Positions 20,143 through 64,000 of a stretch of 64,000 nucleotides of DNA are shown one piece after another. The stretch is from Flavobacteriaceae bacterium F08102 (GTDB taxonomy: Bacteria > Bacteroidota > Bacteroidia > Flavobacteriales > Flavobacteriaceae): NCBI GenBank assembly GCA_023015935.1, contig JALKAY010000004.1:248001-312000 (forward strand), read 5' to 3'. The first letter of the stretch is position 1. Every line of letters begins with the position of its first letter. The notes below the pieces were generated by a model. It saw only the letters and a list, made by a program, of their open reading frames with translations. It had not been told where the DNA came from and ran no database searches. The translations under genes and the position numbers were made by a program.

Positions 20143-20646
20143 TTTTTATTTAAGGTGTTTAATCATTTGACTATTGAATTTGTTTATTCGCTGTTCGATG
20201 AATAGTACAATTCCTTTAAGGGTACGAAGTTGAAGACTTCATAAAACAAGAGGAATTATCGATTGTTGATTAGTGATTTTTGAAGTTGTTTCTCATGATT
20301 AAAACAACGCTAAACAGGTTTGTTTGATACTTACTAATTGCGTATTGATAGTTCCTTGTTCTTTGTTATTTGTTATTTGGATTTTGATCATTGGGATAAT
20401 TGTGATAAAATAAAACAATATTTCTTTTTGTATACCCAAAAAAAGCTAGGGTTTACTTAACCTTTGCTAAGTTAGCATACATTTTTTAACATTCATTTAT
20501 AGCAACCAATTCACATTTTTTCATCTACAAGCTATACCACCTAAAACGCTAAAGTAAAATTTTCTAAAGTTTAAAGATGTCAAATGCATCTTTAAAAGAA
20601 ACAATTAAACTAAACATAACCTTTAAATTCTGTAATTCAATCAATT
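20143..20646. other. 504-base AT-rich leader region of the glycan operon
   Basis: No ORF here looks real. The DNA is AT-rich with T/G-rich low-complexity stretches (TTTGTTATTTGTTATTTGG around 20360). It presumably contains the promoter and a long untranslated leader for the glycosyltransferase operon. I could not identify a clean TAnnTTTG element; TAAAGTTTA near 20560 is the nearest candidate. Confidence 0.35.
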
Positions 20647-24936: not shown

Positions 24937-26217
24937 ATGAAAACGAAGATACAAGGAATTAATATTATTGGATATACCGAAGGTATGTTCGGCTTAGGAG
25001 AGGCTGTTAGATTAAATATAAATGCAGCTAAAAAATGTGACATTCCACTTAATTTAATAAATTATGAGAAAATAAAATCGAATCCTGATTATCCATATTC
25101 ATTCAACTATGATGTTAATTTAATTCAATTATCTTTAAAAGACCTCGAAACATTTATCGCTATTATTGACCCGAATTTATTTAAAAATAAATACTCGATC
25201 CTTTTTTTAGTTTGGGAATCTGAATACATCGCTCCTGCATTAGCAGAAAATTTAACGCTTTTTAATGAAATTTGGACCCCTTCTGCCTATTGCAAAAAAA
25301 TATTTAAAAAAATTTACAACAACCCAATTACCATCGTTCCTCATCCTGTTGAAGTACATCTCACACCGCTTTCTAATGAACAGAAACTCGATGTTTTTGA
25401 CAAAAACAAATTTAGTTTCCTTTTCTTATTTAGTTATCACAGCTCCATGGAAAGAAAAAATCCACTTTTCTTAATTGAAGCGTTTAAAACTGCTTTTAGA
25501 AATACTGACTCAGTAGAATTAATCATTAAAACAGTCGGTGGTAAAAAATACAAAAAACAAAGACAACGTTTAGAACAATATGGTTGTGAAAACATTAAAA
25601 TTTATGATGTAGAACTCGATAAAAATAGCGTTAATCACTTAATTAACACCTGTGACTCGTATGTATCTATGCATCATTCAGAAGGGTTTGGATTAACCCT
25701 AGCGGAAGCAATGTATTTAGGTAAACCTACAGTGGCAACCAACTATTCAGGCAATACAGAGTTCATGAATAAGAACAATAGTTTCCTCATAGATTCTAAA
25801 CTTAGTTATATTGAAAACCCTGACAGGAACTTTTGCCCTAAAACATTATGGGCTAACCCCTTGTTTTCTGATGCGGTTAAAAAATTAAAAAGTGTATATG
25901 AAAACCGCGATTTACGCACTGAGAAAGCTTTAAATGCTGAACGTTATATTAAAGAAAAATTATCTTTTTATGCCATTGGAACAATTGTTAAAAACCGATT
26001 AAATTACATCTATGCCAATTTTGAAAACCTGGTTGAAACTCAAAATCAACATGTTTACCTATTAAACCAATTACAGTCAGCAAGAATTAAGAATGCACAA
26101 CTGCAACGAGAGATTCGAAGAATGCACAAAAACGTGATGATTCGTTTTATTCTAATTTTAAAAAATTCCGTCAGAAAATTAAAAGGTAAACATAAAAAAC
26201 AATTCATACACGTATAA
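24937..26217 (+). CDS. Glycosyltransferase GT4 type with basic coiled-coil tail
   Basis: This 426-residue protein starts at an ATG 9 bases after the ABC exporter. The N-terminal half has GYTEGMFGLGEAVRLNINAA, a pattern of family-1 glycosyltransferases that recognise long polysaccharide acceptors. The donor site HHSEGFGLTLAEAMYLGKPTVATNYSGNTEF (split here) lies around residues 250-280. After about residue 365 a basic amphipathic/coiled-coil segment (LLNQLQSARIKNAQLQREIR) and a Lys/Arg-rich end may tether it to the membrane. It is the last gene of the operon; repeats and an IS follow. Confidence 0.86.
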   Translation: MKTKIQGINIIGYTEGMFGLGEAVRLNINAAKKCDIPLNLINYEKIKSNPDYPYSFNYDVNLIQLSLKDLETFIAIIDPNLFKNKYSILFLVWESEYIAPALAENLTLFNEIWTPSAYCKKIFKKIYNNPITIVPHPVEVHLTPLSNEQKLDVFDKNKFSFLFLFSYHSSMERKNPLFLIEAFKTAFRNTDSVELIIKTVGGKKYKKQRQRLEQYGCENIKIYDVELDKNSVNHLINTCDSYVSMHHSEGFGLTLAEAMYLGKPTVATNYSGNTEFMNKNNSFLIDSKLSYIENPDRNFCPKTLWANPLFSDAVKKLKSVYENRDLRTEKALNAERYIKEKLSFYAIGTIVKNRLNYIYANFENLVETQNQHVYLLNQLQSARIKNAQLQREIRRMHKNVMIRFILILKNSVRKLKGKHKKQFIHV

Positions 26218-26386
26218 AACAGTATTCAGTCTACAGTCAATACTTACTATTATAACTCATATTATTTGAACGTGAACGTAGCGATTCGTGAACTACGAGC
26301 GCAGCTCATTTTATTCGTGGTAGCATACGTACCGCTGAGAAAATGTTCGTGTTAAAGAAAACCAACGCACCAGCTGGCCCCTCTCT

Positions 26387-26411
26387 AAAATTAGTCTGCA
26401 AGACTAATTTT
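26387..26411. repeat. Perfect 25-base stem-loop (11-bp arms)
   Basis: AAAATTAGTCT (26387-26397) and AGACTAATTTT (26401-26411) pair perfectly around GCA. It lies 170 bases past the end of the glycosyltransferase operon and could end transcription or be a REP-like element. Two similar short-loop palindromes lie past the IS at 28025 and 28067. Confidence 0.6.
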
Positions 26412-26561
26412 GGTCGTTCGGTCCTGTGTCAAAAAGAAATTTCCGTAGGGAAAAATAGTGTACCTCGTGGGTTTCTTCACAAAGTTACTCCAATAAATCG
26501 TGTTCGTTGTGGTAAAAACACGCCCCTACGCAAAAGTCTCTCAAACTCACATCAGCGTTTC

Positions 26562-26659
26562 CAGTCTACAGTCTTCAGTCTTCAGTCTTCAGTCTTCAGT
26601 CTTCAGTCTACAGTCTACAGTCTACAGTCTTCAGTCTTCAGTCTACAGTCTTCAGTCTA
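26562..26659. repeat. Tandem array of 14 heptamers CAGTCT(A/T)
   Basis: Fourteen exact-length 7-base units run head to tail, differing only in the last base (A or T), with a 15th partial unit (CAG) abutting the IS left end. Short ORFs that span it merely translate the repeat as LQSSVFS-type peptides and are not genes. Such arrays expand and contract by slipped-strand replication. The function is unknown; another pair of heptamer arrays flanks the four-helix-bundle gene at 60.7-61.1 kb. Confidence 0.9.
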
Positions 26660-26662
26660 CAG

Positions 26663-27967
26663 TGTTATGTCCTGAAATAGGTTGACCACTTAAAAGTGAA
26701 AAACTTATGAAAGCAAACGTACGAAGTATTCGTAAGAAGCGTAAATACAGTGATGATTTTAAAAGAAATATTGTATCTGATTTTGAGGGTGGTAAATTCA
26801 GTATAGTTCAATTAGAACGGCTACATGGAATTAGTAACGTATTAATTTACAAATGGATTTATAAATTTTCTACCTTTAACGAAAAAGGATATAGAGTTGT
26901 GGAAGTAAAAGACAGCAGTTCAAAGAAAATGAAAGAGTTAGAAGCCCGTATAAAAGAATTAGAAAGTACGATAGGTCGTAAACAGATAAAGATTGATTAT
27001 CTAGAGAAGATGATGGATATTGACAAAGAAGAACTAGATATTGATATTAAAAAAAACTTCGGCACCCCACAATCGACTGGTTCAGTAAAAAAACAAAAAG
27101 TGAGTTTTTCAATGAACGATCTCTACAAAGAAGCTGGCTTAAGTAAACAGGCAGTTGTGCAATATGCTGCACGACAACAGGCTTTTGACAACAAAGTGGA
27201 GCAGATGATTCTTGAAGCAGATAAGCGGCGAGAAGATCATCCTGGTTGTGGGGTGGAAAAGATGTATTATACACTAAATCCTGACTTTATCGGTCGGGAT
27301 AGGTTTATAGAATTGATGATGGAGGTTGGATATAGATTGAAGCGAAAACGGAATTATAGGAGAACAACAATAGCGTCAAAATTATATTATCCAAACCTTA
27401 TTAAAGGCATGGAAGTAAATCGTCCTAATATGATTTGGCAGTCAGATGCAACTTACATTCCAATAGGTAATAAACATTATTATGCGGTTTTTATAATAGA
27501 TGTTTATACAAAAAAGATTGTCGGTTATAAGGTTTCAGATAACATGAGAGCTAGGGCTAATATGGATGCTCTGAAGATGGCTTTGAAAGATAACGATGCT
27601 CCTTTAATTCATCATTCCGATCGTGGATACCAGTATACTTATAAAGAGTATATAAGTCTTTTAAAGAAAAACGGAAGTCGAATAAGTATGCACAGGACAA
27701 TGCTTATGCAGAGCGCATTAATAGAACAATAAAGGAAGCGTATCTGGACTACTGGAAACCTAACAGTTTTAGTCAATTAAAAAGAATGACGACTAAAGCA
27801 GTCAAGAATTATAATAGTAAAAGATTGCATACTAATAATGACAGAATGAGCCCTGAAAAGTTCATAAATCAATTTTCTTTCTTGAGGCCTCAAGAAAAAA
27901 AATTGATGACTATATTTAACAATGAATTATTAACCTAAAAACGGTCAACACTAATCAGGGATGTTCA
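26663..27967 (+). mobile_element. IS3-family-like insertion sequence
   Basis: The element is about 1.3 kb and carries one transposase ORF. Its left end reads TGTTATGTCCTGAAATAGG then TTGACC. The right end, reverse-complemented, reads TGAACATCCCTGATTAGTG then TTGACC. The CCTGA and GTTGACC blocks match, giving imperfect terminal inverted repeats of about 25 bases with TG...CA ends. A target-site duplication is not certain: CAG occurs at 26660-26662 and at 27966-27968, but the second overlaps the TG...CA boundary. The left end sits exactly at the end of the heptamer array. Confidence 0.75.
26707..27938 (+). pseudogene. IS3-type transposase, frameshifted in the catalytic core
   Basis: The open frame to 27732 has an N-terminal helix-turn-helix (RKYSDDFKRNIVSDFEGGKF), a coiled coil and the rve integrase core: IWQSDATYIPIGNKHYYAVF with the first Asp, and HHSDRGYQYT with the second Asp. 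At about 27690 the frame should continue as AQDNAYAERINRTIKEAYLD, which carries the DDE Glu. It is read in another frame that runs on to the TAA at 27936-27938. A single-base loss around 27685-27690 explains this. IS3 programmed frameshifting occurs between orfA and orfB, not here, so the copy is probably inactive. Confidence 0.85.
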
Positions 27968-57023: not shown

Positions 57024-58571
57024 ATGACAAGCAACAACCAAAGAGCAGCATTACAAAGTCAAATTTGGAAAATAGCCAATGATGTACGCGGTTCCGTAGA
57101 CGGATGGGATTTCAAACATTTTGTATTAGGCACCCTCTTTTATCGTTTTATTAGTGAGAATTTTACCAATTATATTGAAGCTGGAGACGATAGTATCAAA
57201 TATGCCGAACTTCCAGATTCGGTTATCACTCCAGAAATTAGAGAAGACGCCATTAAAACCAAAGGCTATTTTATCTATCCAAGCCAGCTGTTTGTAAATG
57301 TGGCTAAAAATGCCAATACCAATCCTAATTTAAATACCGATTTAGCCGCCATTTTCTCAGCCATTGAAAGTTCTGCCAATGGTTATCCGTCAGAACAAGA
57401 TATTAAAGGTTTGTTTGCCGATTTTGATACCACCAGTAACCGATTGGGAAATACCGTAGAAAATAAAAACAGCCGTTTGGCTGCCGTTTTAAAAGGTGTA
57501 GAAGGCTTAAAATTTGGCAATTTTGAAGACAATCAAATCGATTTGTTTGGCGATGCCTATGAGTTTTTAATCTCTAATTATGCCGCCAATGCAGGTAAAT
57601 CTGGTGGCGAGTTTTTTACACCGCAAAGTGTCTCTAAATTAATTGCCCAATTGGCCATGCACAAGCAAGAAAAAGTAAATAAAATTTATGATCCGGCGGT
57701 GGGGTCGGGTTCATTGCTTTTACAAGCCAAAAAACATTTTGACAACCATATTATAGAAGAAGGCTTCTTTGGGCAAGAAATTAACCATACCACCTATAAC
57801 TTGGCGCGTATGAATATGTTTTTGCACAACGTCAATTACGATAAGTTTCATATTGAGTTGGGCGATACACTTATAGATCCTAAATTAAGTAACGAAAAAC
57901 CTTTTGATGCCATTGTTTCCAATCCGCCATATTCCGTAAAATGGATTGGCAATGACGACCCTACGTTGATTAACGACGACCGTTTTGCACCTGCTGGGGT
58001 GTTGGCTCCTAAATCAAAAGCCGATTTTGCTTTTGTCTTACATGCCTTAAGTTACTTATCTAGTAGAGGTAGAGCTGCTTTGGTGTGTTTTCCGGGTATT
58101 TTTTACCGTGGCGGTGCCGAACAAAAAATTAGAAAGTATTTGGTAGATAATAACTTTGTAGAAACCGTTATTTCCTTGGCTCCTAATTTGTTTTTTGGAA
58201 CATCTATTGCCGTTAATATATTGGTATTGTCTAAACACAAAACCGATACCAAAACCCAGTTTATTGATGTAAGTGGTGAAGACTTCTTTAAAAAAGAAAC
58301 TAATAACAATGTGCTTTTAGACTCCCATATAGCGCAGATTATGCAATACTTTGATACCAAGGAAGAAGTTGCTCATGTTGCTACAACTATAGACAATAGT
58401 AAAATTGCCGAAAACGATTATAACCTCTCGGTAAGTAGCTATGTAGAAGCCAAGGATACCCGAGAAAAGATAGACATTGTAAAACTAAATGCCGAGCTAG
58501 CTACCACCGTAAAAAAGATAGACCAGCTACGTGCCGATATTGATGCTATAATAGCAGAAATTAAAAACTAA
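57024..58571 (+). CDS. hsdM: Type I restriction-modification methyltransferase subunit
   Basis: This 515-residue N6-adenine methyltransferase subunit has an HsdM N-terminal helical domain ([20 protein letters not shown]). It is followed by the SAM-binding motif DPAVGSGS (223-230) and the catalytic NPPY (300-303). A C-terminal helical tail ([20 protein letters not shown]) probably contacts HsdS. It methylates the host copy of the target sequence and is needed for the restriction complex. It is the first gene of the operon; the next gene starts 3 bases after its stop codon. Confidence 0.95.
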
Positions 58572-58574
58572 AAG

Positions 58575-59585
58575 ATGACTAAAGATACTAGCGAAATCAT
58601 CATCTATAAAAGTGAAGATGGATTACCAGAACTTTCGGTTCATTTAGAAAATGAAGATGTTTGGCTTACTCAAAAACAATTGGTTGAGCTATACCAAGCT
58701 GCAAAATCTACTGTGAGTGAACATATTAAAAATATTTACAATGATGAAGAACTAACACCCGAAGCAACTGTTCGGAAAATCCGAACAGTTCAAAAAGAGG
58801 GCAACCGAGAAGTAAGTCGCGAATTGGATTATTACAATTTAGATATGATTATTGCCTTGGGGTATCGCATCAATTCTAAAATAGCTACACGTTTTCGCCA
58901 ATGGGCAACTAGCCGCCTTAAAGAATACATTGTAAAAGGCTTTACCATGGATGATGAACGCCTAAAAAATGTAGGCGGAGGAAATTACTGGAAAGAGTTA
59001 TTAGACCGTATTCGAGATATTCGTTCTAGTGAAAAAGTGATGTACCGTCAGGTATTGGATTTATACGCTACCGCTACAGATTATGACCCTAAAAGTGAAG
59101 AAAGCATTACTTTTTTTAAAATCGTTCAAAATAAATTGCACTATGCAGCACACGGAAATACAGCAAGCGAAGTTGTTTTTTTAAGGGTAGATAGTGATAA
59201 ACCTTTCGCAGGGTTAACCAATTTTAAAGGAGACCAACCTACCCAAGCCGAAGCGATGATAGCCAAAAACTTTTTAGAAGAAAAAGAACTTAAAGTACTC
59301 AACAACCTTGTAGCTGCCTATTTTGATTTAGCAGAACTAAATGCCATAGAAGAACGCGAAATGCGTATGGCAGATTTTGTAACAGAACTAGACAATATTT
59401 TAGCCTCTACAGGACGTAAAGTGTTAGAAAGTGCAGGTAATGTTTCTCATGCTAAAGCCAAAAAAAAGGCCACACAAGAATACAAAAAGTACAAAGCCAA
59501 AACCCTAAGCACCGTAGAAAAAGACTATTTAAAAACCCTAGCTGAACTAGAAAAAACAGCCAAAAAACAAAGCCGTAAGAAATGA
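58575..59585 (+). CDS. RhuM-family protein inside the hsd operon
   Basis: The 336-residue protein has an N-terminal KilA-N/HTH-like region (VWLTQKQLVELYQAAKSTVS, EHIKNIYNDEELTPEATVRK) and a family block YYNLDMIIALGYRINSKIAT. It ends in a basic helical tail after a coiled-coil-like segment (about 270-336, AKKKATQEYKKYKAK). RhuM-type proteins are often seen between hsdM and hsdS, but their role is not settled; a DNA-binding regulator or an accessory defence part is plausible. The stop codon overlaps the hsdS ATG by 4 bases, pointing to translational coupling. Confidence 0.85.
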   Translation: MTKDTSEIIIYKSEDGLPELSVHLENEDVWLTQKQLVELYQAAKSTVSEHIKNIYNDEELTPEATVRKIRTVQKEGNREVSRELDYYNLDMIIALGYRINSKIATRFRQWATSRLKEYIVKGFTMDDERLKNVGGGNYWKELLDRIRDIRSSEKVMYRQVLDLYATATDYDPKSEESITFFKIVQNKLHYAAHGNTASEVVFLRVDSDKPFAGLTNFKGDQPTQAEAMIAKNFLEEKELKVLNNLVAAYFDLAELNAIEEREMRMADFVTELDNILASTGRKVLESAGNVSHAKAKKKATQEYKKYKAKTLSTVEKDYLKTLAELEKTAKKQSRKK

Positions 59586-60685
59586 ACTATTTAGAAAAAT
59601 TGTTACAAGGTGTTGAAGTGGAATGGAAAACGTTGGGGGACTTTGCAGCTTATGAACAACCAACAAAATATCGTGTAAAGTCTAAAGAATATCATGATGA
59701 TTATGAAATACCTGTTTTAACAGCAGGTAAAACTTTTATACTAGGTTATACAGATGAAACAAATGGTATTTATAAAGCATCAGAAAATCCTGTAATCATT
59801 TTTGATGATTTTACAACTGCTAATAAATGGGTGGACTTTGATTTTAAAGTGAAGTCGTCGGCAATGAAAATGATTACATCTAAAGATGAATCTAAAGTGT
59901 TGTTAAGATATATTTATCACTGGATAAATACATTACCTAGTGATTTAGTAGATGGTGATCATAAGCGACAATGGATCAGTAATTATGCAAATAAACAAAT
60001 CCCCATCCCACCACTATCGGTTCAAAAAGAAATCGTTCGTATTTTAGATACCTTTACAGAGCTTACCACAGAGCTTACCACAGAGCTTACTGCACGTAAA
60101 AAGCAATATAGCTTTTATAGAGACAAGTTGTTAACGCCTTTAATGGTTAATGGTAAATGGTTAATGAATAATAAAGAAGTGGAATGGAAAACTTTGGGGG
60201 AGGTGTTGAAAATAAAAAATGGTAAAGATTATAAAAAATTCAAAGAAGGTAATATTCCTGTTTATGGTTCTGGTGGTGTAATGAAATACATAGATACAGC
60301 AGTATATAATAAACCATCTGTTTTAATACCAAGGAAAGGTTCTCTAGGAAATTTATTTTATGTAGATTTTCCTTTCTGGACTGTTGATACAATTTTTTGG
60401 ACAGAAATATACACTAATATTATTAACCCCAAATTTGTTTACTACTATCTACAAACACAAAACCTTGCTAAATTAAATAAGGCTGGTGGTGTACCAAGTT
60501 TAACACAAACTATTTTGAATAAACTAAGTATTCCTGTTCCACCACTAGAAGAGCAAGAACGTATCGTTTCCATCTTAGATAAATTTGATACGCTAACTAC
60601 ATCCATCAGCGAAGGGTTACCAAAAGAAATAGCATTGCGTAAAAAACAATATGAGTATTACCGCAACAAGCTGCTTAGTTTTTAG
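59582..60685 (+). CDS. hsdS: Type I restriction-modification specificity subunit
   Basis: The 367-residue S subunit has two target-recognition halves. TRD1 (about residues 1-145) starts GVEVEWKTLGDFAAYEQPTK and ends in the IPIPPLSVQKEIVRILDTFT conserved helix. TRD2 (about 185-330) starts EVEWKTLGEVLKIKNGKDYK and ends IPVPPLEEQERIVSILDKFD. Each TRD reads half of a bipartite DNA target. A 12-base tandem repeat in the linker helix encodes TELT three times (about 159-170), a region that sets spacer length in known type I enzymes. Its stop codon lies inside the first heptamer of the following array. Confidence 0.94.
   Translation: MNYLEKLLQGVEVEWKTLGDFAAYEQPTKYRVKSKEYHDDYEIPVLTAGKTFILGYTDETNGIYKASENPVIIFDDFTTANKWVDFDFKVKSSAMKMITSKDESKVLLRYIYHWINTLPSDLVDGDHKRQWISNYANKQIPIPPLSVQKEIVRILDTFTELTTELTTELTARKKQYSFYRDKLLTPLMVNGKWLMNNKEVEWKTLGEVLKIKNGKDYKKFKEGNIPVYGSGGVMKYIDTAVYNKPSVLIPRKGSLGNLFYVDFPFWTVDTIFWTEIYTNIINPKFVYYYLQTQNLAKLNKAGGVPSLTQTILNKLSIPVPPLEEQERIVSILDKFDTLTTSISEGLPKEIALRKKQYEYYRNKLLSF
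60056..60091 (+). repeat. Triplicated 12-base repeat in the hsdS linker
   Basis: ACAGAGCTTACC occurs at 60056-60067 and 60068-60079, and ACAGAGCTTACT at 60080-60091. The unit keeps the reading frame (four codons, Thr-Glu-Leu-Thr), so copy-number change would lengthen or shorten the central helix without breaking the protein. Confidence 0.95.
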
Positions 60686-60709
60686 GGGTTAGGGGTTAGT
60701 TTTTAGTGA
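60682..60709 (+). repeat. Heptamer array, left flank of the four-helix-bundle gene
   Basis: Four 7-base units, TTAGGGG, TTAGGGG, TTAGTTT, TTAGTGA, begin inside the hsdS stop codon region and end 14 bases before the ATG at 60724. They are G-rich on the plus strand, opposite in sense to the right-hand array. Confidence 0.8.
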
Positions 60710-60723
60710 AAAGAAAGAAAAAA

Positions 60724-61086
60724 ATGATAAAAGATTTTAAAGATTTAATTGTTTGGCAAAGGGCAATGGAGCTTGTCACCGAAGTATATAGGCTGGTAAA
60801 AAAACTCCCTAAAGAAGAACGTTTTGCGTTAAGTGACCAAATTAGACGGTCGGCTATTTCTATTCCAAGTAATATAGCTGAAGGACAAGGAAGAAATTCA
60901 ACAAAAGAATTTATACAGTTTCTATCCATTGCAAAAGGTTCAAAAGCAGAATTAGAAACTCAACTTTTACTTTGTGTAAAAGTCACGTATCTAACTAATT
61001 TAGAGATAGAAAAGGCCACAAACCTAATTCAGGAAGTAGGAAAAATGCTTAACGCGCTCCAAAAATCACTAACCACTAACCACTAA
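60724..61086 (+). CDS. Four-helix-bundle protein (S23/IVP family)
   Basis: This 120-residue protein starts at the ATG at 60724 ([20 protein letters not shown]); a GTG at 60706 would add six residues. The family hallmarks are [32 protein letters not shown] and the final helix. The family includes the protein encoded by 23S rRNA intervening sequences and the Avd protein of diversity-generating retroelements; most stand-alone members have no known role. It interrupts the usual hsdS-hsdR order. Its last codons and stop lie inside the right-hand heptamer array. Confidence 0.92.
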
Positions 61087-61112
61087 AACCTAATCACTCA
61101 AACCTAACCACT
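61067..61112 (+). repeat. Heptamer array, right flank of the four-helix-bundle gene
   Basis: Successive 7-base units read CACTAAC, CACTAAC, CACTAAA, ACCTAAT, CACTCAA, ACCTAAC, then CACT immediately before the hsdR ATG at 61113. Reverse-complemented, the main unit is TTAGTGG-like, so it is an inverted relative of the left array (TTAGGGG). Confidence 0.85.
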
Positions 61113-64000
61113 ATGAATTACAAAACCATAGCAGAATCTAATAACTTTATTGTTTTAGAAAACTATAAAAAATTTTCGGAAGTTAATGAGGTACCTGCCG
61201 GTTTCCAAACCGAAGCAGGTTTAGAAAGAGAATTCATCCAAGATTTACAAAATCAAGGGTATGAGTATCTGCCGCAGCTTACCAACCAACAAGCCATGTT
61301 GGCCAATGTAAGAATACAACTTCAAGCACTTAATGACATGCAATTTACCGATGCGGAATGGGAACGGTTTGTAATAACATATTTAGATAAACCGGGTGAT
61401 AACCTTTTAGATAAAACAAGAAAAATACACGATGACTATATCTACGATTTTGTGTTTGACGATGGTCACATCCAAAACATCTATTTGGTAGATAAAATTA
61501 ACATTACACGGAATAAAGTACAGGTCATTTCGCAATTTGAACAAAAAGGAATCCATGCCAACCGTTATGATGTTACTATTCTAGTCAACGGACTACCTAT
61601 GGTGCAGGTAGAACTAAAAAAACGTGGGGTAGCCATTCGCGAAGCTTTTAATCAAGTACACCGGTATACCAAAGAGAGTTTTAATACCGAAAATTCTCTT
61701 TTTAAATACTTACAGCTTTTTGTCATTTCTAACGGTACAGACAGCCGCTATTTTGCCAATACCGTAAAACGAGATAAAAACAGTTTCGACTTTACCATGA
61801 ATTGGGCAAAAGTAGACAATACCGCTATTAACGACCTTAAAGATTTTACGGCTACCTTTTTTCAGAAAAATACCCTGCTTAATGTATTACTAACCTATTC
61901 CGTTTTTGATGTAAGTAATACGCTTCTCGTAATGCGTCCGTATCAAATTGCGGCAACCGAGCGTATTTTATGGAAAATTAAAAGTTCGTATCAGGCAAAA
62001 AGCTGGTCTTCTACCGAAAGTGGCGGTTATATTTGGCACACCACAGGCTCTGGTAAAACATTAACAAGTTTTAAAGCGGCACGTTTAGCCACACAATTAG
62101 ATTTTATAGACAAAGTATTTTTTGTGGTAGATAGAAAAGATTTAGACTATCAAACCATGAAAGAATACCAACGCTTTTCTCCAGATAGTGTCAATGGTTC
62201 TAATAGTACTGCTGGCTTAAAACGTAATATTGATAAAGACGACAATAAAATTATTGTTACCACCATTCAGAAACTGAACAATCTAATTAAAAGCGAAAAA
62301 GACTTAGCAATTTATAAAAAACAAGTCGTATTTATTTTTGATGAAGCTCACCGTTCGCAATTTGGCGAAGCACAAAAGAATCTAAAAAAGAAATTTAAAA
62401 AATACTATCAGTTTGGTTTTACAGGCACTCCAATTTTTCCAGAAAATGCCTTAGGTGCAGAAACTACAGCAAGCGTTTTTGGAAGAGAGTTACATTCTTA
62501 TGTGATTACTGATGCTATTAGAGACGATAAAGTACTAAAGTTTAAAGTCGATTATAATGATGTTCGTCCAAAATTTAAAGTCTTAGAAACTGAAATTGAC
62601 GAAAAAAAACTCAGTGCCGCAGAAAATAAAAAAGCCCTGCTGCATCCCGAACGGATTAACGAAATATCAGAATATATTTTAAAAAATTACCGACAAAAAA
62701 CCCATCGAACACAAGGAACCAACAGCGGGTTTAATGCCATGTTTGCGGTAAGCAGTGTAGATGCGGCAAAGTGTTATTACCAAGAGCTAAATGGTTTACA
62801 AAAAAACGCTGAAAAACCCTTAAAAATAGCTACAATATTTTCGTTTGCAGCCAACGAAGAACAACATGCCATTGGAGAAATTGCAGACGAAACTTTTGAG
62901 CCAACCGCAATGGATGTGAGTGCCAAAGAGTTTTTAACCGCTGCTATTAATGACTATAATGCCATGTTTAAAATGAATTATAGTATTGATAGCAAAGGAT
63001 TTCAAGATTATTACCGCGACCTTGCCAAACGAGTTAAAAATAGGGAAGTAGATTTGCTTATTGTGGTGGGTATGTTCTTAACTGGTTTTGATGCGCCATG
63101 TCTTAACACCTTGTTTGTAGATAAAAATTTGCGTTATCACGGTTTAATACAAGCGTTTTCACGTACCAATCGTATTTATGATGCCACAAAAACCTTTGGT
63201 AATATTGTTACCTTTAGAGATTTAGAACAAGCTACTATTGATGCCATTACGCTTTTTGGAGACAGCAACACCAGAAACGTAGTATTAGAGAAAAGTTATA
63301 AAGAATACTTAGAAGGGTTTACCGATATTGCTACAGGAAAAGCCCGTAGGGGATATGTGGAAGTGATAAAAGAACTCAAAGAAAAATTCCCCAATCCAGA
63401 TGAAATTGTAACCGAAAAGGATAAAAAAGAGTTTTCAAAACTGTTTGGTGAATACTTACGCGTAGAGAATATTCTTCAAAATTATGACGAGTTTACCAAG
63501 CTAAAAGCCTTTCAATCGGTTGATATAAATGATGCTGAAGCTATAGAAGCCTTTAAAGAAGAACACTTTGTAAGCGATGAAGATATGGCGATAATGAAAG
63601 CAATAGAATTGCCAACAGAACGTGCCGTTCAAGATTATCGCTCTACCTATAACGACATTCGCGATTGGTTGCGTCGGGAAAAACAAGGCAAAGAAGTCGA
63701 AGAATCTGATATTGATTGGGATGATGTGGTGTTTGAAGTAGACTTGTTAAAATCGCAAGAAATAAACTTAGACTATATTCTGGAATTAATCTTTGATAAG
63801 CATAAAAAAACGGCAAACAAAGAAGATTTAGTAGACGAAATAAGACGCGTAATACGAGCCAGTGTTGGTAATAGAGCAAAAGAAAGTTTAGTCATAGATT
63901 TTATTAATGCTACCGATTTAGATGAAATAAACGACAAAGCCACCATTATTGATGCCTTTTTTAAATACGCACAAATCAAACAACAAAAAGAGGCAATGCA
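61113..64000 (+). CDS. hsdR: Type I restriction endonuclease subunit (partial, runs off the end)
   Basis: The ATG at 61113 opens a frame of 962 codons to the window edge with no stop ([20 protein letters not shown]). The nuclease PD-(D/E)xK-type site is Asp153 with Glu167-Leu-Lys169 ([10 protein letters not shown]). The motor domains have Walker A HTTGSGKT (309-316), the DEAHRSQFG box (410-413) and [20 protein letters not shown] in the second RecA lobe. HsdR translocates DNA and cuts unmethylated DNA at a distance. Only a short C-terminal piece should be missing, given the usual length near 1000 residues. Its ATG follows directly on the heptamer array, so its translation may be influenced by array length. 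Confidence 0.95.

Follow-up and report, generated by a model that had tools for sequence, protein, structure and literature searches.

In the window (the whole stretch of DNA analysed, 64 kb in length), a gene for a four-helix-bundle protein lay between hsdS and hsdR and was flanked on either side by arrays of a heptamer, inverted relative to each other. With a probability of roughly 0.75, judged from sequence comparisons, these elements would represent one mobile unit, of the same kind as 23S rRNA intervening sequences (IVS) but inserted between protein genes, whose protein may recognise its own word. The locus comprised the following features:

57024..58571, + strand: hsdM, first gene of the operon
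58575..59585, + strand: RhuM-family gene, between hsdM and hsdS
59582..60685, + strand: hsdS, specificity subunit, host gene upstream of the unit
60675..60709, + strand: left arm, five TTAGNNN heptamers, with the hsdS stop codon inside
60724..61086, + strand: four-helix-bundle gene, 23S rRNA intervening-sequence protein family (PF05635 / TIGR02436)
61067..61112, - strand: right arm, 6.5 heptamers, inverted with respect to the left arm
61113..63998, + strand: hsdR, restriction subunit, host gene downstream of the unit, continuing beyond the window

The whole unit was 438 bp long (60675–61112). Its left arm read, in order, TTAGTTT, TTAGGGG, TTAGGGG, TTAGTTT and TTAGTGA. An earlier note on this DNA had described four such heptamers from 60682, beginning inside the hsdS stop codon; the heptamers and their overlap with the stop were borne out, but there were five from 60675, the first being hsdS coding sequence and the second containing the TAG stop (60683–60685). 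The right arm, which read CACTAAC, CACTAAC, CACTAAA, ACCTAAT, CACTCAA, ACCTAAC and CACT, was as the note had it: six and a half inverted heptamers, including the stop codon of the four-helix gene (61084–61086) and abutting the hsdR start codon at 61113. Across the window, arrays matching at 18/28 or better numbered ten at lag 7 and 0–6 at lags 4–6 and 8–12, making lag 7 the sole clear excess. There were no Rfam matches between 56000 and 64000, and the unit was placed between hsdS and hsdR, outside any 23S rRNA gene.

The assignment of the gene to the S23/IVP type held up on profile comparison: the protein, of 120 amino acids from its ATG and with a calculated pI of 9.3, matched PF05635 with 146.3 bits (cut-off 33.8, E = 4e-43) and TIGR02436 with 140.6 bits (cut-off 24, E = 2e-41). 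It shares a related family with the Avd proteins of diversity-generating retroelements, matching the bAvd profile (PF22296) with 46.3 bits against a cut-off of 40; unlike these, it scored 49.8 bits with the Avd equivalog (NF033474), below the cut-off of 80, and no reverse transcriptase domain was found in the five operon proteins scanned. The profile scan recognised no transposase or nuclease domain in the four-helix protein. The protein was under purifying selection, with dN/dS of 0.04–0.18 in nine of ten pairs, the tenth being synonymously saturated. Two relatives have solved structures, 2gsc (XCC0516) and 2rld, with five chains each; by the title of the paper on it, XCC0516 reportedly consists of five four-helix bundles.

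When 60 genomes were searched (the window's own and 59 relatives), the family was present in 40. Among the matches listed, 94 loci were read, 34 to begin with and 60 more taken mostly in order of E-value; these carried 98 profile hits, of which three at locus edges were dropped (L041, L006, L069). The resulting set of 95 gene hits from 37 genomes includes one broken gene counted twice, as two pieces (L086). The inverted match between the two flanks of a gene averaged 18.7, against 11.1 for flanks taken from different loci, and was beaten by no foreign partner in 35 of the 95 and by three or fewer in 65. For the window itself, none of the right flanks of the other 94 gene hits matched the left flank better than its own. 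Direct-repeat comparison of the flanks gave 12.6 for own and 11.3 for foreign pairs. Own arms scored at least 15 in 74.7% of the 95, while period 7 at 18/28 or better occurred in 47 upstream and 45 downstream flanks, the figure for control stretches being 6 of 190; at lags 5, 6, 8 and 9 the same flanks gave just 0–9 of 95. The word varied from locus to locus, and the left and right arms of one locus matched as inverted repeats. The window's own genome had five PF05635 matches, one of them (L005) under the cut-off; by eye, arrays of CAGTCTN flanked L002 and arrays of TTAACNA flanked L003, no arrays were present at L004, and none were seen at the partial match L005, though its flanks scored 17.0. 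At L015, the arms appeared by eye to have unlike words (AGTAC-type at left, AGA-type at right), a departure from arm matching.

The same comparison was applied to 603 genes in 800 kb of two genomes, three of them being IVP genes. Two-sided arrays (18/28) were found at 2 of the 603, one of which was the window's own gene; without the IVP genes the figure was 1 of 600, against 40 of the 95 PF05635 gene hits. The sole remaining control was probably a spurious reading frame over a CAGTCTT array (26343–26675) and had no inverted match. Inverted flank scores of 17.5 or more were reached by 1.3% of the 603 controls, IVP genes kept in, and by 52.6% of the 95. These controls bear on the view that slippage makes period-7 arrays in spacers, independently of a gene that merely happens to lie there. 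Heptamer arrays without the gene are indeed common, and simple heptamer repeats have been described from a number of bacterial groups (PMC4679880, PMC4692102). Yet ordinary genes lacked two-sided arrays, arms matched better within a locus than between loci, and related proteins at different sites had similar words. Independent microsatellites are therefore extremely improbable, and were rejected on the control genes.

Similar arms were observed beyond the window's order. A scan of genome contigs gave at least 594 stretches, of which the best 80 were kept, representing many phyla according to record titles; three edge loci (L222, L251, L295) were dropped to leave 77 with full flanks. In this wide set the own inverted match averaged 23.5, against 10.3 for foreign pairs, and was unbeaten in 52 of 77; measured against foreign pairs, it was above the 99th percentile in 49 loci and above the 95th in 61, with the other 16 falling under the latter. 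Period 7 was found in 56 upstream and 49 downstream flanks, and lags 5, 6, 8 and 9 in 0–7. The survey of four-helix genes for flanking heptamers, suggested in the earlier note, thus found such arrays to be frequent in both sets. Exceptions were L255, a Faecalibacter unit whose arrays were in direct rather than inverted orientation, L227, which had a one-sided array, and L266, which had no inverted match. By eye, 8-bp words took the place of 7-bp words in L259, L290, L291 and L213 (Patescibacteria and Gemmatirosa). There was no rRNA near the 20 wide loci, out of 80, that were checked.

Plasmids had the family in 42 of 72,556 records, while none of 50,697 phage records contained an IVP gene with the window protein as query (E 1e-4). 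Ten plasmid records were read (eight from cyanobacteria, one each from Gemmatirosa and Azospirillum), and the own flank pair was the best of ten at 8 of the 10 loci, the exceptions being L211 and L212. Plasmid words included AAAGCTA, GGAGTAG, GGGAACA and GGGTGTA; L213, from Gemmatirosa, and L214 gave no lag-7 signal, and L213 showed a period of 8 by eye. Of the plasmid units, two had cas6 and cas4 as their neighbours, one was flanked by cas10 and a cmr3-family gene, and one by the ribonucleotide reductase genes. Three units (L206, L211, L214) lay within CRISPR-cas operons, which suggests that IVP genes listed in cas loci, of which PMC3936711 notes 18, may be passengers.

A joint set of 175 units was assembled from 87 wide units (10 from plasmids) and 88 from the window's order that covered almost the whole profile. 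When the left arm was modelled, the model found an array in the right arm of its own locus with a score of 21.2, against 4.6 in other loci; 72 of 175 own right arms exceeded the 99th percentile, as did 50 of 175 in the reverse direction. With unit lengths of 5, 6, 8 and 9 the corresponding numbers were 12, 19, 36 and 16 of 175. The count of words on the held-out arm peaked at five for right arms (28/72) and at four for left arms (12/50), with a second group of left arms at 7–8 (14/50); a joint fit of both arms was biased by its four-unit seed. A correspondence between five words per arm and a five-subunit protein was considered and found to be weak, the left arms peaking at four.

The hsd junction was compared across 12 other genomes with HsdR relatives 82–85% identical to the window's, from a family search of 397 genomes, a comparison that the earlier note had proposed. 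The junction was bare in two (L126 and L133, with gaps of about 8 and -11), and occupied by a different PF05635-family gene in another two (L127 and L128), where inverted arms were clear in L128 (lag 7, 21/28) and weak in L127 (15/28). The other eight had about 1.1–1.2 kb from the last hsdS match to hsdR, with no PF05635 match. The two arrangements that were to speak against a unit, that is, a gene present in all relatives without heptamer flanks, or arrays at the hsd junction without the gene, were not seen in these 12.

Other sites gave comparable contrasts. Of 30 sufA-sufB loci, 17 had gaps of 6–21 bp, five had the gene within gaps of 454–789 bp (that of L143 including a run of N), and eight had gaps of 50–399 bp in which no gene was detected. 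One of the last, the 399-bp spacer of the window's own genome (L150), looks like a decayed PF05635 copy that has kept the right array alone. For three plasmid sites, there were 30, 44 and 2 matching records; 12, 12 and 2 were listed and 10 regions compared. The TraM site of cyanobacterial plasmids was filled in L208 and L299 and empty in L296 and L297 (flanks 94% identical), while L298 had a GGGAAC-type arm pair with the gene absent, and L305 diverged beyond TraM. The integrase site was filled in L210 and L304; in L300, L301 and L302, about 90% identical, stop and start were 3 bp apart. At the reductase site, L207 carried a unit and L303, 85% identical, had none. By eye, insertion at these sites replaced roughly 10–50 bp of spacer and left the neighbouring genes readable, and no target-site duplication was visible at the three sites; the junctions are not exact to the base, because the empty-site relatives are only 85–94% identical. 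Occupied and empty versions of one site, as are generally asked of a mobile unit, were therefore found at the hsd junction and at the plasmid sites, and the unit is very likely mobile.

These comparisons also bear on a quite different role for the gene, as an accessory to restriction or defence, or as a regulatory cassette for tuning the gene downstream, the arrays being phase-variable spacers. Its place between hsdS and hsdR, and the presence of the family in cas loci, would suit such a role; the recurrence of this family, with the same layout, at metabolic and plasmid loci would not, and 10 of the 12 relatives lacked, as far as detected, this gene type or any gene at the junction. This explanation is very unlikely, and a role tied to restriction in particular was rejected, as units of the same build occurred in unrelated operons. 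The two alternatives of the earlier note were separated in the same way. Its small insertable unit agrees with the empty junctions, with the joint occurrence of gene and arms at unrelated sites, and with the ordinary-gene control, whereas its expression-tuning cassette found no support, the same build recurring in fatty-acid, sdh, suf, cas, plasmid-transfer and ribonucleotide-reductase loci.

Protein and word tended to change together. Several units shared a site, among them two fatty-acid operon sites, sdhA-sdhB and sufA-sufB, the operons being named from the flanking proteins. With sites whose neighbours joined no cluster counted as different, pairs from different sites and different genomes had an average arm similarity of -0.03 below a protein identity of 0.3, 0.18 at 0.6–0.7 (55 pairs), 0.30 at 0.7–0.8 (17 pairs) and 0.61 above 0.8 (4 pairs, all involving L065). 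Pairs from the same site with proteins less than 0.3 identical had -0.07 (7 pairs). The correlation of protein and word was r = 0.24 in the window's order (0 of 1000 shuffles as high) and r = 0.126 in the 175-unit set (0 of 2000); it is modest, and could stem from co-inheritance alone. Individual cases follow the same pattern. L065, located at the sdh site, had a protein 82–87% identical to those of the fatty-acid-site units L031, L032, L068 and L069 and shared their AGA-type words, while L047 and L078, also at the sdh site, differed in both protein and word. Eight related units (L002, L033, L051, L053, L057, L059, L063, L079), spread over about five sites, all had CAGT-type words; L029, whose protein belongs to their group, failed the two-arm fit. 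Among the best 80 of at least 594 stretches, the closest to the window protein was L216, from an uncultured Ruminococcus assembly, which was 68% identical and had the same TTAGTGG word. L218 (65%) had a partly similar word, while L217, L219 and L221 (60–62%) had words that scored as dissimilar.

It may be asked whether the arms are matched as DNA or as RNA. If as RNA, the arms would pair in the operon transcript, RNase III would cut the stem and the middle would be freed as in 23S rRNA; selection on the RNA helix would maintain the matching of the arms, and the element would spread via RNA. This is compatible with a mobile unit, and several observations point towards it. In 92 of the 95 cases from the window's order, the gene ran in the same direction as both its neighbours; across two 400-kb stretches this held for 66% and 52% of genes. 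The predicted fold of the window unit had its arms paired (z = -2.06), and 3 of 100 shuffles were as good. Over the set, the duplex came to -49.8 kcal/mol for own arms and -36.8 for foreign ones. In Coxiella (PMC4990558), RNase III cut the 28-bp stem of the 23S IVS in vitro, and GACAGAT heptamers in tandem, varying in copy number by strain, lay upstream of the gene. Against it, mismatches between arms showed no preference for G.U over A.C, numbering 118 and 121 in one set and 142 and 155 in the other (an earlier count for the first was 118 and 128), and the advantage of sense over antisense duplexes was equal for own and foreign arm pairs. Some units, moreover, were antisense to their neighbours (L207, L212); among wide and plasmid units, 58 of 77 that could be called were sense to both neighbours, 10 further units being uncallable. 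In arms read inwards, G outnumbered C in 67 of 75 units and in 58 of 67, among those whose arms could be usefully aligned. Selection for RNA structure as the main source of arm matching was rejected on the absent G.U excess, and the RNA explanation as a whole is unlikely. The lack of a G.U preference makes arm matching look like a DNA-level property, and it is probably DNA rather than RNA that is matched. Since the arms go with the gene from one site to another and look matched as DNA, they belong to the unit, and gene and arms are in all probability one element.

The mobile unit might then work as follows. Placed between co-directional genes, as in the window's order, it would presumably be read from the host promoter. 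The basic protein, as a relative of the five-bundle XCC0516, would bind, at both ends, to a short core that is conserved in its own heptamer, and so hold these ends together while host enzymes moved or copied the unit. Slippage and template switching at the DNA level would homogenise the inverted arrays and thereby keep the arms alike, the core being held fixed by the protein. That the protein recognises its own heptamer core we consider slightly better than an even bet. Pairing of the arms in RNA, and cutting by RNase III as in 23S rRNA intervening sequences, would also be possible.

Among known systems, the Coxiella 23S rRNA IVS (PMC4990558) shares with the window unit the protein family inside, inverted ends able to form a stem, and tandem heptamers. 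Unlike it, the window unit sits between protein genes rather than in an rRNA gene, and the word of the present units changes from unit to unit. The heptamer repeats of cyanobacteria, Beggiatoaceae and Xanthomonas (PMC4679880, PMC4692102) share tandem 7-bp words in spacers; here, in contrast, a gene and two arms make one unit, and the words are many and different. PMC4679880 describes TAACTGA repeats and raises the speculation that the mobile element might be a protein that binds the repeats. PMC4692102 treats heptamers of Xanthomonas and Nostoc, reports 70 and 75 convergent inverted pairs in two Xanthomonas genomes, with most arrays having four units, and generally finds no link between heptamers and mobile elements. 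Neither 'S23' nor 'four helix' occurs in the texts of these two papers. Elsewhere, IVP genes are placed in rRNA insertions of CPR bacteria (PMC11270868), PF05635 and Avd are both treated in PMC10053308, and the gene is mentioned in PMC5787105, PMC10910872, PMC5524665 and PMC8700078. Among open-licence full texts, where absence is no proof, none was found to join a PF05635 gene with heptamer arms outside rRNA. Miniature inverted-repeat elements (MITEs) and insertion sequences are similar in their inverted ends, empty sites and, at one site (L298), a gene-less version; the present units differ from them in having ends that are word arrays varying by unit, with neither a transposase domain nor a visible target-site duplication.

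Gene-less arrays were frequent in general. In two 400-kb stretches, arrays at 19/28 numbered 18 and 15, of which 4 and 0 were within 250 bp of a detected gene; the latter figure is too low, because the gene finder missed some known PF05635 genes. One of them, in G023, reads as an inverted pair with no gene. Of two array types tested across genomes, the first was present in 21 of 40 genomes with the gene and 2 of 20 without, and the second in 29 of 40 and 2 of 20. Among genomes of at least 2.4 Mb the CAGT pattern occurred in 21 of 39 and 1 of 6 (p = 0.19) and the other type in 28 of 39 and 1 of 6 (p = 0.017); the association of arrays with the gene is partly an effect of genome size. Two arrays of CAGTCTT and CAGTCTA, in direct orientation and without a PF05635 gene, were seen in the window at 26217–26251 and 26549–26675, just upstream of an integrase-core transposase gene; their word is that of the genome's L002 unit.

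Rather tentatively, the units could belong to a class of mobile elements found across the bacteria. In place of a fixed sequence, the ends of such elements would consist of a short arrayed word that drifts freely from one element to another, with protein and word staying matched as a natural recognition code. The 23S rRNA intervening sequences would then be the branch inserted in rRNA, and gene-less arrays would be non-autonomous derivatives. Such a class would join IVP genes of no assigned function, 23S rRNA intervening sequences and heptamer repeats that lack a known carrier; if each protein binds its own word, it would also supply many natural protein-word pairs from which a recognition code could be read.

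Further repeats were noted in the window. Within hsdS, a 12-bp repeat encoding TTEL occurred three times at 60056–60090, which we take to resemble the central repeats of type IC specificity subunits, where a change in repeat copy number changes specificity. An array of TTAATGG heptamers was found at 60131–60184, in the hsdS reading frame between its two halves; the hsdS parts of four relatives had no lag-7 stretch above 17/28, the value of 21 for L128 being due to the arm of its unit. Two more period-7 stretches occurred at 20253–20396, in the spacer upstream of a glycosyltransferase gene.
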